Assembly (NCBI GenBank): GCA_900113385.1
Contig: FOPE01000021.1
Coordinates: 1 to 51,041, forward strand
DNA: 51,041 nucleotides
From: Lachnospiraceae bacterium C7
GTDB lineage: Bacteria; Bacillota; Clostridia; Lachnospirales; Lachnospiraceae
Direction: 5' to 3'
The notes beneath the pieces are model-generated. The model saw only the letters and a list, made by a program, of their open reading frames with translations. It had not been told where the DNA came from and did no database searches. Positions 15,413 through 21,618 of this stretch are shown here, in pieces. Positions within the stretch are counted from its first letter, which is position 1; each line of letters opens with the position of its first letter. Both the position numbers and the translations under genes were made by a program.

Positions 15413-16729
15413 ATGTGGACATATGAAAAAGCAATAGAATTTACCAAAAATGCAGCAAAGAAAGGTTCGGTGTTAGGCTTAGAGAGTATACAGAATTTAA
15501 TGGCAGAATTAAATCATGTAGAAAATGAGATTAGATGTGTGCATATTGCAGGCACTAATGGTAAAGGATCTACAGGAGCCTTTTTAGAAAGCATTTTAAT
15601 TGAGGCTGGAATGAAAGTCGGAAGATTCAGTTCGCCAGCAGTATTTGATGCTTTTGAAGTATGGAAAATAAACGGTCAATCAATATCAAAAAAAGAATAC
15701 ACTACTATAATGTCACAGGTAAAAAAAGCCTGTGACATTGTGGTATCTAAAGGATTTTTAGAGCCAACAATTTTTGAAATAGAGACAGCAGCCGCTTTTT
15801 TGTATTTTTATCAAAATAAAGTAGATATAGCTTTGATTGAGGTAGGAATGGGTGGAGCTACTGACGCAACCAATGTAATTAATAGCCCTGTAGCTTCAGT
15901 AATAACATCTATTAGTATGGATCATATGGCATTTTTAGGGGATACATTATCTGAAATTGCAATGGTAAAAGCTGGGATTATAAAGAAGAATTGTCCAACA
16001 TTTTCAGCAGTTCAAGATGCTGAGGTGGCAAATGTTCTTAAAAAGGTAACTAATGAGAAAAATAGCCAATTAGTTATGGTAAATCCTGAAGACATAGGTT
16101 ACATATCTTTAAATATAAACGAAAATAAGTTGGAATTTTTTTATAAAAATAGGAAATATGTTATAACTTTGCTAGGAGAGTATCAGGCAAAAAATGCAAC
16201 ATTGGCAATAGAGACAGCAGAATATCTTTTGAAAAATATCAATATAATTCATATGACACCAGTTGAAGTGGAGGCAGTCATATTTAATGGATTGAAAAAA
16301 ACGATTTGGCCAGGAAGATTTGAAATTATTAAAAAAGAGCCTTTTTTTATAATAGATGGCGCTCATAATTATGATGCAGCTATTCAATTAAGACACATTA
16401 TTGAAAAAAATTTCCCAAAAGAGCAATTAAATTTCATAATAGGTGTTTTAAAAGACAAAGAATATGGTAAAATCATAGATGTAATGATTCCATTTGCAAA
16501 TAGGATTATAACAGTTACAACACCAAACAATCCTAGAGCGCTAGATGGAGAAAAATTAAAAGAGGAAATAATAAAGCGTAATAAAAAGCTTGAGGTTTAT
16601 GTTGCAAGTAGTTTAGAAGAGGCTGCAAAGTTAAGCATAGCATGGGCTAATGAAGATGGACACAAAACGATTGCGTTTGGTTCATTGTCATATTTAGGGG
16701 AGATGAAAACATATATTAAGAAGTTATAG
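15413..16729 (+). CDS. folC: Folylpolyglutamate synthase / dihydrofolate synthase
   Basis: The 438-residue protein adds glutamate to folates using ATP, which traps them in the cell. The P-loop is GTNGKGST (47-54). Other family marks are a Mur-ligase-like central domain with EVGMGGATDATNV, SMDHMAFLGDT, WPGRFEII and DGAHNYDAA. Length is normal for FolC. It is the third gene of the topoisomerase operon and precedes a gene whose FolB/FolK parts are degenerate. No folP, folE or folA is in the window, so FolC here may act only on imported folate. Confidence 0.93.
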   Translation: MWTYEKAIEFTKNAAKKGSVLGLESIQNLMAELNHVENEIRCVHIAGTNGKGSTGAFLESILIEAGMKVGRFSSPAVFDAFEVWKINGQSISKKEYTTIMSQVKKACDIVVSKGFLEPTIFEIETAAAFLYFYQNKVDIALIEVGMGGATDATNVINSPVASVITSISMDHMAFLGDTLSEIAMVKAGIIKKNCPTFSAVQDAEVANVLKKVTNEKNSQLVMVNPEDIGYISLNINENKLEFFYKNRKYVITLLGEYQAKNATLAIETAEYLLKNINIIHMTPVEVEAVIFNGLKKTIWPGRFEIIKKEPFFIIDGAHNYDAAIQLRHIIEKNFPKEQLNFIIGVLKDKEYGKIIDVMIPFANRIITVTTPNNPRALDGEKLKEEIIKRNKKLEVYVASSLEEAAKLSIAWANEDGHKTIAFGSLSYLGEMKTYIKKL

Positions 16730-16827
16730 TTGCAGTAATAGCATTAAATGCAGGATTGTTGCAAGGTTGTAATTTATTATGAGGTTTTCTGTAATGACAT
16801 AATTAAGTGCGCGGAAAGGGATTAAAC

Positions 16828-19176
16828 ATGGACAACATTAGTATTAACAATTTAAAAATTTTTGCTACAACAGGACGTTTTTTTTACGTAAATGCCAAAT
16901 TATATGAGGATGGCAAAAAAGTTGCAATTGATGATGGAACAGACAATGCAACAAATTATAATCAGGTGTGCGATTTGATTATAAGTGAATTTTCTAAGAC
17001 AGATTTTGAATTCTTAGAGACTATTGCAGATCGAATTTGCAAAGAAATTCTAGTAAGATTTCCATTAATTCAAAAAGTTGAAGTAGAGGTGGCAGATGAT
17101 GACACTTCAAAAGACTTATCTTATGATACAATTTCTGTACAAGTAGAAAGAAAAGTAAGTACAGTTTATGTATATTGTCAAGCAGATTTCGATGAAAATA
17201 AATCAGAAAATAAAGGGTTGTTTTTAGATACAGTTGATGAGATTGCAAAACATGATCTTATTAGAAATGTAACTCGCTCATCTATAAATGAGGTCGAATA
17301 TGATGGAATTGTTCTTAATGCAGCCATTCGATTTGATACAATACTTGAGCCAGAGGATCTGTATTTTTATTTAAAATACATTGAAGATAATGCAGAACAT
17401 AATAAGAAATTTGATATGAATCTTGAAATTATTTTCTTTGGAAATGAAGTATATGACAGTGATGAAATAGTTATTCCATATGTGGGAGTAGAGGATAAAC
17501 TATATATTTTAAAGCCATTATATGAGATTAATCCAAATTTTCATCATCCAATTTCACGAGTAACAATTGGAGAACTGTATGAGGAAAAATTAGAACGAGT
17601 AAAAAGAAAATTTCTTAAAGAAGCAGAAAACAAAAAAAGAGAGCAAACTAATAATTCAACTAAAATAACTAATAATGTTAATTTGCCTGAAAGTGAGACT
17701 TCCGATGATTCTATAGAAAGTATACAAGAAGATGCCCAGGAAAATGTTCAAGAAAAGGCTTACGAAGGCGTACAAGAAGTTTCTCAGAAGGAAGCTATAA
17801 GCAAACCAAGGGTGGAAGTAGAATTTGAGTTTGATACAGATCTATTAGAAGAATCAGAAGATTTAGAAGATGATTCAACGGAAATAGCAACAGATTTAGA
17901 TAAAGATTCAGAATCAGATAATGTTCAAGAAGATGAAGTAGAGTGGAGCTATTTAGAACCAGATTTAGAATTTGAATCAGATCTAGATCGAGCTTCATTT
18001 TCAGACACAGAAGTTGAAGCGGATTCGGATGCAGATTTAGATTCAGAATTAAACACAGAATCAACCATATACTCAGACAAAGCTTCAGATTTAGACAAAG
18101 CTTCAGAATCATACACAGGCATAACTTCAGAATCAGCACAATATTCAGAAGTAGACGTTGATTTTGATATGGATAATTATCAAGACGAAGAAGATTATCA
18201 AGATGAAGATGACAAATTAGTAGAAACAGATAATGAATACTTTGTTGATGAGAAATTTGATGTAGAACCTGGTGCCGCTGATTATTTTAGTTTCGAACCA
18301 GTAACAACTGGGGTGAAAAAGGCAGTCAAGAAAATCGATAACACAGAAAAAGTCGAGAATGAAAGCTTTGATAAAGAATTAGAAATCGAAGTTGAGAGAA
18401 AATTGCCACAAAAAAATAAACTAGAAAATAAAATATTAGAAGCAAAAAATATTTTATTCGCAAGTAAAAATTTAAAAGCCAATGAAACAATTCAAAGAAT
18501 GGAAAAAGCTTCTAAGGACAGCTCAAAGCTTGTACTATTTGACTTAGATGGTACTTTAATAGATTCCTCTGAAGGTATTACTAAAAGTGCAAGATATGCA
18601 TTAAATCACTTTGGAATTTGGGATACAAAATTAGATGATTTAAGATTTTTCATTGGACCACCTCTTAGAAATACATTTATGGAACACTATGGATTTTCGG
18701 AGGAAAAAACCAAGAAAGCAATTTCTATATTTAGAGAACGCTATACAAAAGTTGGAATGTTCGAGTGTAAATTATATAGCAATGTAGGTAAATGCTTACG
18801 TGAGTTGAAACGTAAAGGATATAAAATTGCATTAGCATCTTCAAAACCAGAAAGTTCATGTAGACAAATATTGGAATATTTTAATATATTTAACTATTTC
18901 GATGAGGTGGTAGGAGCATCAGCTGATGGTAGAATTAATACAAAAAGTGAAGTCCTTGATGAAGTATTTAGAAGATTTAGTGATATTCCAACTGAAAATA
19001 TGTGCCTTATTGGTGACACAAATTATGATGTTACAGGTGCTGCCGAAAAAGATATTCCATGTATTGTTGTGTCATATGGTTTTGGCGATATAAATGAAAT
19101 GAAAAAAAATAAAATTGCGGCAATTTGTAATGACACAATAGATATACCGGAGGTTTTGAGAAAAGTATGGAATTAA
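16828..19176 (+). CDS. Chimera: degenerate FolB and FolK domains, acidic linker, HAD phosphatase
   Basis: The ATG at 16828 is chosen because GGAAAGGG lies 7 nt upstream; a GTG at 16807 has no such site. Of 782 residues, 1-110 resemble dihydroneopterin aldolase (FATTGRFFYVNAKLY, FLETIADRI). About ten residues carrying the usual catalytic glutamate are missing after G16, and the usual lysine-proline near 90 is replaced by ADDD. Residues 112-260 follow the HPPK (FolK) fold pattern, but the GSN loop, the RWGPR motif and the DLDIL metal aspartates are lost (the segment reads DMNLEIIFF), and the IPHPR histidine is tyrosine. Residues 265-565 are a low-complexity D/E/S-rich linker with short internal repeats. 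Residues 566-782 are an intact HAD subfamily IA phosphatase: FDLDGT (D572, D574), ASSKP and GDTNYDV. The folate domains are probably inactive as enzymes. The role is unknown. Confidence 0.82.
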   Translation: MDNISINNLKIFATTGRFFYVNAKLYEDGKKVAIDDGTDNATNYNQVCDLIISEFSKTDFEFLETIADRICKEILVRFPLIQKVEVEVADDDTSKDLSYDTISVQVERKVSTVYVYCQADFDENKSENKGLFLDTVDEIAKHDLIRNVTRSSINEVEYDGIVLNAAIRFDTILEPEDLYFYLKYIEDNAEHNKKFDMNLEIIFFGNEVYDSDEIVIPYVGVEDKLYILKPLYEINPNFHHPISRVTIGELYEEKLERVKRKFLKEAENKKREQTNNSTKITNNVNLPESETSDDSIESIQEDAQENVQEKAYEGVQEVSQKEAISKPRVEVEFEFDTDLLEESEDLEDDSTEIATDLDKDSESDNVQEDEVEWSYLEPDLEFESDLDRASFSDTEVEADSDADLDSELNTESTIYSDKASDLDKASESYTGITSESAQYSEVDVDFDMDNYQDEEDYQDEDDKLVETDNEYFVDEKFDVEPGAADYFSFEPVTTGVKKAVKKIDNTEKVENESFDKELEIEVERKLPQKNKLENKILEAKNILFASKNLKANETIQRMEKASKDSSKLVLFDLDGTLIDSSEGITKSARYALNHFGIWDTKLDDLRFFIGPPLRNTFMEHYGFSEEKTKKAISIFRERYTKVGMFECKLYSNVGKCLRELKRKGYKIALASSKPESSCRQILEYFNIFNYFDEVVGASADGRINTKSEVLDEVFRRFSDIPTENMCLIGDTNYDVTGAAEKDIPCIVVSYGFGDINEMKKNKIAAICNDTIDIPEVLRKVWN
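18075..18107 (+). repeat. 15-bp direct repeat inside the acidic linker
   Basis: AGACAAAGCTTCAGA occurs at 18075-18089 and again at 18093-18107, encoding two copies of a SDKAS/LDKAS-like unit. The surrounding linker repeats the Ser/Asp/Glu codons in many near-copies, so replication slippage is a plausible source of its length. Confidence 0.7.
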
Positions 19177-19925
19177 AAAAAGGTAAAGTATTAAACTCTA
19201 CTTTAGGAGCACTAGTTTTATATCATGTAATATTTTATGCTTCAGTTATATTAATGAGAAATATAGTTGGTCTTGCAAAAGAAAAATACATGATTTGCCA
19301 TACAGTAGGTGCCATCATAACAATTTTGTTTATGATGGTTGCCTATGGCAAAAATATTGTTTTTATAGAAAAAAAAGAAGACGGTAAAAGAAAAATAAAA
19401 CAACTTTTGTTTTTATCTTTTAGTATCATAGTTATGGCAATTGGATTAAATGATTTGATAATGTCAACTGTATTGGTGAAGCAATCTGATGGATTTCAAA
19501 ACACAAATGCTTCATTTTATGCAGGGGCTTTTGCAATTCAGATGGTTGGTAATGCAATTTTTACGCCTATAGCCGAAGAAATATTGTATAGAGGAATTGT
19601 TTTAAAAAATTTATCAAGTGTTATAGATACAAAAAAAGCGATAGTATTTACAGCCTTGATTTTTGGAGTATTGCACGGTAATATTGTTCAATTTATCTTT
19701 GCAACAATTCTAGGAATTGCTTTTGGAATAGCTGCTACATATGCCAAAGGGATATATTTGCCAATAATCTTACACATGATAATTAATTCAATTAGTTTAA
19801 TAAGAACTAATTTTGGTATTGCAAATTTTCAGAACATTTCATCTACAATTCATATAATGGTGGCAACAGTATTACTTGTTGTAGGAGCGCTAGGTATTTT
19901 TATATCTTTAAAAATAAAAAAATAG
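19167..19925 (+). CDS. CPBP-family intramembrane metalloprotease
   Basis: The 252-residue protein is mostly hydrophobic, with about seven predicted membrane segments. The three CPBP (Abi/CAAX-like) motifs are present: EEILYRG, FGVLHGN and HMIINS, which hold the glutamate and histidine metal-site residues. Family members cleave prenylated or other membrane proteins, or give immunity to bacteriocins; the substrate here is unknown. The ATG overlaps the end of the chimeric gene by ten bases, so the two are translationally coupled. Confidence 0.88.
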   Translation: MELKKGKVLNSTLGALVLYHVIFYASVILMRNIVGLAKEKYMICHTVGAIITILFMMVAYGKNIVFIEKKEDGKRKIKQLLFLSFSIIVMAIGLNDLIMSTVLVKQSDGFQNTNASFYAGAFAIQMVGNAIFTPIAEEILYRGIVLKNLSSVIDTKKAIVFTALIFGVLHGNIVQFIFATILGIAFGIAATYAKGIYLPIILHMIINSISLIRTNFGIANFQNISSTIHIMVATVLLVVGALGIFISLKIKK

Positions 19926-21006: not shown

Positions 21007-21618
21007 ATGAGTTTAATGTTAGGACCAATTCATACTTGGTTATTTAGAAAAATTAAATTACAAAACGAATTAGTTGATAATATTATTGCAAAATCAATTG
21101 AATTAAAATACATTGAAGATGATTTTAAAGATATGATTGATAGACGCTATGGTGTTTTAGAAGATGGAGATTTAGCTGATATTTGTGATTCATCTAATAT
21201 CCATGGTTGGTTGCAAAGCAGAATTACATTAGTAGAAAATAGACTAGCATTTACAGTTACTTTTATTACAGATGGAAATGAAGACCGAATAACAGATATT
21301 ACAGGTGTTGCTTATGACTTTGGTAAGAGATATCCTAAAGAAAAACTAGAAAAAGTTGATGACGCTTATAAATTCTTAGGTGATGTTTTAGTAAATGGAA
21401 TGCCATGTGATAGAGTTAATTCAGTTGTTTCAAGTGATGACAATAGTATTTTATGGGAGCAGACAGTTGATATTCATGGACCATATTGGGAATGCATTTC
21501 AGGCAATATGGAATTCTATGAAGCAATTAAAGAGGCACTTATTATTGGACTATTGGAAGAAACAGATTTTACGTTTGAAAAGGTAAATGATAATCTCTAT
21601 GAATTAAGGAGAAAATAA
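21007..21618 (+). CDS. Unrecognised protein between DUF1858 and hemerythrin genes
   Basis: The 203-residue soluble protein is not recognised. It starts MSLMLGPIHTWLFRKI and carries several residues that could bind a metal or haem: H9, a histidine-tryptophan pair in IHGWLQ, a cysteine in GMPCDRV, and H-W-C close together in DIHGPYWECI. No membrane segment or signal peptide is visible. It starts 1 nt after the DUF1858 stop and ends 1 nt before the hemerythrin start, so all three products are likely made together. A supporting role for the di-iron partner is a guess from context only. Confidence 0.8.
   Translation: MSLMLGPIHTWLFRKIKLQNELVDNIIAKSIELKYIEDDFKDMIDRRYGVLEDGDLADICDSSNIHGWLQSRITLVENRLAFTVTFITDGNEDRITDITGVAYDFGKRYPKEKLEKVDDAYKFLGDVLVNGMPCDRVNSVVSSDDNSILWEQTVDIHGPYWECISGNMEFYEAIKEALIIGLLEETDFTFEKVNDNLYELRRK

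Follow-up and report, generated by a model that had tools for sequence, protein, structure and literature searches.

In a 51,041-nucleotide stretch of the genome of Lachnospiraceae bacterium C7 (contig FOPE01000021.1; the whole stretch is called the window here), a single open reading frame (ORF) on the forward strand, running from an ATG at 16828 through 782 codons to a stop at 19176, encodes a 782-amino-acid protein that joins a FolB-like domain, a FolK-like domain, an acidic linker predicted to be disordered, and a HAD phosphatase domain, in that order. The fusion ORF at 16828-19176 is confirmed as real, and because a second species (genome G072) carries the same fusion, it goes beyond chance. 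The FolB-FolK part (FolBK) has lost its catalytic residues in both species, and we consider it somewhat probable that this dead pair was exapted as a non-catalytic scaffold or hub of the HAD phosphatase, perhaps regulating it. The fold, the domains, and the pathway are already known; what we rate as new is a dead FolB-FolK pair on a HAD domain as an exapted pseudoenzyme, and no such fusion is described in the titles and abstract openings of the literature matches listed. The parts of the gene are as follows:

16815-16820, forward strand: likely ribosome-binding site (aaaggg), 7 bases 5' of the ATG, from reading of the sequence
16828-17151, forward strand: FolB-like (dihydroneopterin aldolase, DHNA) domain, residues 1-108, from Pfam, alignment, and predicted fold
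17152-17613, forward strand: FolK-like (HPPK) domain, residues 109-262, from Pfam, alignment, and predicted fold
17566-17673, forward strand: helix at the C-terminal end of FolBK, residues 247-282, overlapping the FolK part and conserved in G072 to residue 262
17674-18360, forward strand: acidic linker, residues 283-511, with predicted disorder and weak short repeats; most of it cannot be aligned to G072
18361-18513, forward strand: predicted helix 5' of the HAD domain, residues 512-562, best conserved in G072 at 526-540 (10/15)
18514-19176, forward strand: HAD phosphatase domain, residues 563-782, and stop, with motifs D572/D574, S671-K673, and D730/D734

The original prediction, made from the sequence alone, had read the N-terminal part as FolB followed by FolK, and profile searches bear this out. 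Pfam scores exceeded their cut-offs for FolB (45.6 bits over residues 16-106) and for HAD_2 (108.2 bits over residues 569-748), and that for HPPK fell on either side of its cut-off of 25.7 bits (23.8 bits in the protein scan, 27.3 bits in a six-frame search). The FolB equivalog model TIGR00525 (38.9 bits against a cut-off of 72.15) and the FolK model TIGR01498 (31.5 bits against 54.1) were not reached. The N-terminal part is nevertheless modelled with high confidence as a FolB-FolK fold, with intact FolBK rows present in the model's alignment; by prediction, therefore, it has the FolB fold as well as the Pfam family, and the HPPK fold, as expected if folded domains had been retained. The D/E/S-rich linker, predicted at about 300 residues, spans 301 amino acids when delimited by alignment (residues 263-563; D+E 31%), and in the full-length structure model, which came without inter-domain scores, the predicted local distance difference test score (pLDDT) lies below 50 over residues 287-512. 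The HAD motifs, said to be intact, are all there: the DxD, the Ser, the Lys, and the acidic motif IV place the domain in HAD_2, given the usual roles of these residues in the superfamily. Its match to 3mc1 covers 203 residues (E 6.5e-52), and no NCBIfam model exceeded its cut-off among the best 25 of 28 hits.

To define the losses, the two dead copies were aligned with 26 intact FolBK proteins, a non-random set selected for open frames of clear placement, and 71 columns conserved in at least 85% of the intact rows were scored. Each dead copy keeps 29 of these columns (24 in both), compared with 61-71 in the intact rows; 37 are lost in both copies, 21 of them identically, of which 9 are gaps. 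In FolB, a 9-residue deletion between residues 18 and 19 removes the segment with the catalytic Glu, the lysine of KPxAP is replaced by Asp in the window protein and by Tyr in G072, and His15 is lost, so that neither the catalytic Glu nor the Lys by which a FolB is recognized is present. In FolK, four residues have been inserted into a rewritten GSN loop, WGPR has been deleted, the DLD motif has other residues in place of its two Asp (Asn and Glu here, Glu and Asn in G072), the PH histidine has become Tyr, and the Arg is lost; the two metal Asp, the WGPR Arg, the His, and the GSN loop that mark a FolK are thus missing from both dead copies. They include all the FolB and FolK losses named in the original prediction, and the lost residues are presumably the catalytic and metal-binding ones. 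FolB Tyr44, FolB Glu64 (the anchor residue), and FolK Asn164 are kept in both copies. By alignment and residue numbering, Glu64 should correspond to E. coli Glu73. In E. coli FolB, the carboxylate of Glu73 and backbone amides are reported to hold the pterin (PMC4176595).

The original prediction had proposed looking for the same fusion in related genomes, and the fusion was found in G072 at the same locus, where a 609-amino-acid protein starts at the matching ATG and lies between parC and a CPBP gene, with no folC at the spot. Identity between the two proteins is 54-56% in FolBK, 72-73% in HAD, and 59% over the whole protein where aligned; the G072 linker is shorter and aligns poorly except for the segment with residues 526-540 (10/15 identities). 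Four indels are common to both dead copies: the FolB 9-residue deletion, the GSN-loop 4-residue insertion, and two FolK deletions of about 5 residues. In a midpoint-rooted parC tree of 50 of the 62 genus genomes plus the uncultured Lachnospiraceae genome RUG115 (12 were left out, for example where parC was missing or split), the window genome and G072 form a clade (100/100), whose sister (97/84) is the intact G003. Both a recently lost stop codon and an assembly error were rejected as the source of the fusion, as G072 carries the same fusion with a different linker. Of the refuting case that had been set out beforehand, separate intact genes at this spot together with a recent stop loss, the first half does occur in relatives (4 of 10 loci, below), but the fusion predates the split of the two species. 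No dead copy other than that of G072 was found in the 62 genus genomes. In a search of 397 family genomes without G072 using one profile, the next match after the protein's own (547.7 bits) scored 161.7 bits among the matches listed, the weaker of which were only partly inspected.

Selection on the protein, which had been argued from the 782 codons of open frame, is seen in the comparison of the two species. The frame, open behind its aaaggg in the window, is open in G072 too, and the ratio of nonsynonymous to synonymous change (dN/dS) by the Nei-Gojobori method (NG86) is well below 1: 0.26 for FolBK, 0.13 for HAD, and 0.29 for the alignable linker, next to 0.53, 0.08, and 0.05 for the neighboring CPBP, parC, and parE genes. 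Since synonymous sites are near saturation, dN/dS is rough, and NG86 was used together with raw codon-position counts, by which 17.6% of second codon positions of FolBK differ compared with 62% of 37 four-fold sites; maximum-likelihood dN/dS was unusable, with values that were saturated or anomalous (dS as high as 40; parC 0.69). FolBK identity is 56.1% in the dead pair (parC identity 84.4%), a value inside the 39.9-75.1% spanned by 35 intact pairs with parC at 80-88%. Dead against intact FolBK, in contrast, reaches 26.5-35.9% (42 pairs), where intact pairs at parC 70-76% reach 44.4-67.5% (72 pairs). These comparisons used 21 of the 22 intact genomes (all but G068, in which parC is split), and the pairs share lineages and are not independent. 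Because dead-against-intact identity is low and dead-pair identity lies within the intact range, FolBK appears to have changed fast on the stem of the dead pair and slowly since. With the fold retained as a prediction, purifying selection, and the catalytic residues absent, the FolBK part has the attributes of a pseudoenzyme.

Two other explanations bear directly on this pattern. The first is slow decay, in which the dead part has no role and persists as a passenger because HAD is translated behind it. The loss of the active sites agrees with it, as does the linker, which evolves fast and differs in length between the two species. However, decay predicts neither renewed constraint nor an open frame, yet the frame is open in both species, dN/dS is about 0.26 with second-position change far below four-fold change, divergence since the loss stays within the range of intact enzymes, and the model folds with high confidence, though with the intact rows in its alignment; we therefore regard decay as very unlikely. 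The second is that the FolB or FolK part gained a new catalytic activity with other residues. A burst of change followed by constraint would also fit a new enzyme, and new residues are common to both dead copies, including cysteines 48 and 117; with the catalytic Glu, the Lys, both metal Asp, the Arg, and the His all gone, however, we find this extremely unlikely.

The host looks like a folate-salvaging bacterium that has lost folate synthesis, as judged from its gene content. In the window genome (2.84 Mb, 91 contigs, completeness score 100), profile and six-frame searches found no second FolB or FolK, and FolP was not found. The sole pterin-binding match there and in G072 is an 814-839-amino-acid MetH-type protein (metH 502 and 504 bits, below the model cut-off, with the methyltetrahydrofolate methyltransferase domain model above its cut-off). 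Both genomes have FolT behind a tetrahydrofolate (THF) riboswitch (89.2 and 84.0 bits), and both have DHFR and a FolC away from the fusion locus. Loss of synthesis is supported because no FolP was found, the pterin-binding match is of the MetH type, and FolT stands with a THF riboswitch. The loss that had been predicted thus stands for FolP, whereas FolC and DHFR remain and FolE stays. Loss of FolE was considered and rejected, since the gene was located in both genomes within queD-queE-folE-queC-queF, a queuosine operon (all five window-genome genes pass NCBIfam cut-offs; in G072, FolE was profiled and its neighbors were read by eye). The window genome also holds two full folC genes (G000:C62:85533-86693 and window 15413-16729), though no folP was found.

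Across 60 genus genomes, some of them incomplete, FolP-strength matches (at least 264 bits) occur in 22 and FolT above its cut-off in 32; FolT is present in 2 of the 22 with FolP versus 30 of the 38 without. FolB without FolP was seen in the genus only in the window genome and G072, these labels being profile matches in draft genomes, some of them less than 80% complete. The commonest FolBK state in the genus is none at all: 38 of 62 genomes have no FolBK match, as do 15 of the 30 that are at least 90% complete. As a caution, a FolB match alone is no proof of folate synthesis.

Another explanation is that the FolB pocket still binds pterin, folate, or guanine and that the bound state switches the HAD phosphatase. 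FolE makes dihydroneopterin triphosphate. It was found in 4/4 genomes with FolP, 2/2 with the dead fusion, and 0/6 other folate-minus genomes (12 searched), and the FolB anchor Glu64 and Tyr44, as well as FolK Asn164, survive in both dead copies despite the loss of 37 of 71 conserved columns. On the other hand, the FolK pterin pocket is mostly gone (its Phe/Tyr loop and WGPR are deleted), FolB is without His15 and the catalytic-Glu loop, the surviving residues may be structural, and the FolE contrast amounts to only 2/2 versus 0/6 genomes. Such ligand switching seems to us rather unlikely, and the same holds for its fuller form, a doubtful one, in which the dead pair after folate loss would be a pterin or guanine sensor on a tethered HAD, reading a pterin pool set by the que-operon FolE and by import.

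We return, then, to the scaffold or hub that we favor, for which the genes around the fusion suggest a route:

15413-16729, forward strand: folC, upstream remnant of the fol cluster (TIGR01499, 335.5 bits)
19167-19925, forward strand: CPBP/Rce1-type membrane protease gene, overlapping the 3' end of the fusion by 10 bases

The ancestral cluster would have been parE-parC-folC-folE-folP-folBK-HAD-CPBP, an order still present in some relatives. The names parC and parE are labels of this analysis; NCBIfam names the first subunit gyrase-like, and the labels reflect the presence in this genome of another GyrA-type gene with 41% identity. Starting with folB and folK in one bifunctional gene and the HAD phosphatase in another, the ancestor of the window species and G072 may have proceeded in the following order: (i) folate synthesis was given up, with folP lost and folate imported through FolT; (ii) folBK and HAD were joined; and (iii) FolB and FolK lost their active sites but kept their folds. 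The FolBK part would have persisted as a domain with a structural or regulatory role for HAD, most likely as a putative oligomeric hub to which flexible acidic tethers attach several HAD domains, and a remnant of the FolB pterin site may also tune HAD. Because FolB forms tetrameric rings, as reported in PMC4176595 and PMC4790348, the simplest interpretation would be a hub with several HAD arms.

Several observations weigh against this account. Among the ten intact-FolBK loci of the genus that were compared, CPBP lies directly 3' of folBK with HAD not between in five (L053, L054, L055, L056, and L058), and L054 is the locus of the sister G003; with no HAD behind its folBK, this closest intact relative gives no example of the neighbor-fusion route. 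In eight further loci of the form parC-HAD-CPBP (L036, L039, L042, L046, L048, L050, L051, and L052), HAD adjoins parC and the fol genes are gone from the spot; therefore, HAD needs no FolBK domain in general. The deleted FolB loop is presumably near Trp20 of E. coli DHNA, going by residue numbering. Since Trp20 is reported as a tetramer-tetramer contact (PMC4176595), octamers at least may be lost. The dead-pair FolBK identity of 56.1% falls below the 61.7% mean of the 35 intact pairs, the dead form is present in two species only, and the constraint is that of one pair with saturated synonymous sites.

In the remaining intact loci, a HAD gene follows a separate folBK directly in four (L044, L045, L047, and L049), and neither HAD nor CPBP follows in L057. 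The four loci would also agree with a pterin-linked job, in which HAD takes the one remaining phosphate off dihydroneopterin monophosphate, with pterins still positioned for it by the dead domains. A HAD is likewise fused to an intact FolBK in RUG115, and the phosphate is stated to be believed removed by a non-specific phosphatase (PMC1971073). Against such a job, HAD is not behind FolBK in 5 of the 10 loci, in eight others it adjoins parC at a spot that has no fol genes, and the window genome cannot use the product for folate; we think it has little chance of being right. In four other loci (L035, L038, L040, and L043), folT under a THF riboswitch lies between parC and HAD, and in L037 it lies near HAD, an import gene where synthesis genes used to be.

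The RUG115 fusion (L106:5989-7464, 491 amino acids; FolB 124.0 bits, FolK 128.6 bits, and a related HAD) matches the window protein in its three domains and their order; by eye, it is preceded by a folP-like gene and followed by a CPBP-like one. Unlike the window fusion, its FolB and FolK are intact, it has no linker, and fol genes are adjacent (folC, folE, and folP by eye; an HD gene by Pfam). HD (HDIG) proteins of folate clusters are proposed as FolQ2 in PMC1971073. A common origin was not favored, as the midpoint-rooted parC tree places RUG115 on the side opposite to the dead pair, and its fusion has an intact FolBK and no linker. The RUG115 fusion is thus probably independent of the dead fusion, which suggests that the FolBK-HAD junction can arise more than once and makes HAD a candidate folate-pathway partner in some species.

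Other comparable systems also differ from the window protein. SulD of Streptococcus pneumoniae, a bifunctional FolB-FolK (PDB 2cg8), is an intact pair, whereas the window protein lacks the catalytic residues and has a linker and HAD. The 3mc1-like HAD phosphatases (3mc1 itself is a predicted phosphatase) are matched by the window HAD, which has the motifs and whose relatives are free-standing. The DHNA of Pneumocystis (fasA, fasB) belongs to a working folate pathway. It resembles the window protein in having FolB-type domains inside a fused folate protein, with FolB-type activity reported over two domains (PMC4790348). Within the same family, FolB-FolK-prephenate dehydratase fusions (G155, G156, G214, and G355) likewise join FolBK to an unrelated downstream enzyme, and their FolBK is intact by Pfam in G155 (L139) and G156 (L140) and by eye in G214 (L141) and G355 (L142). 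The window fusion is a tree-placed case in which two neighboring vitamin-pathway enzymes would have become a non-catalytic domain upon pathway loss. Since the fusion can be compared with a sister lineage in which FolBK is intact, with HAD relatives that stand alone, and with an intact fusion of apparently independent origin, the reuse and retention of dead enzymes becomes directly testable.

The FolBK-prephenate dehydratase fusions are also a link between folate and phenylalanine enzymes, and that of G156 carries a chorismate mutase domain between FolBK and prephenate dehydratase. Elsewhere in the window, a 203-amino-acid ORF at 21007-21618, with no Pfam or NCBIfam match at E 0.001, is flanked by a prismane-associated redox-disulfide gene and a hemerythrin-like gene.
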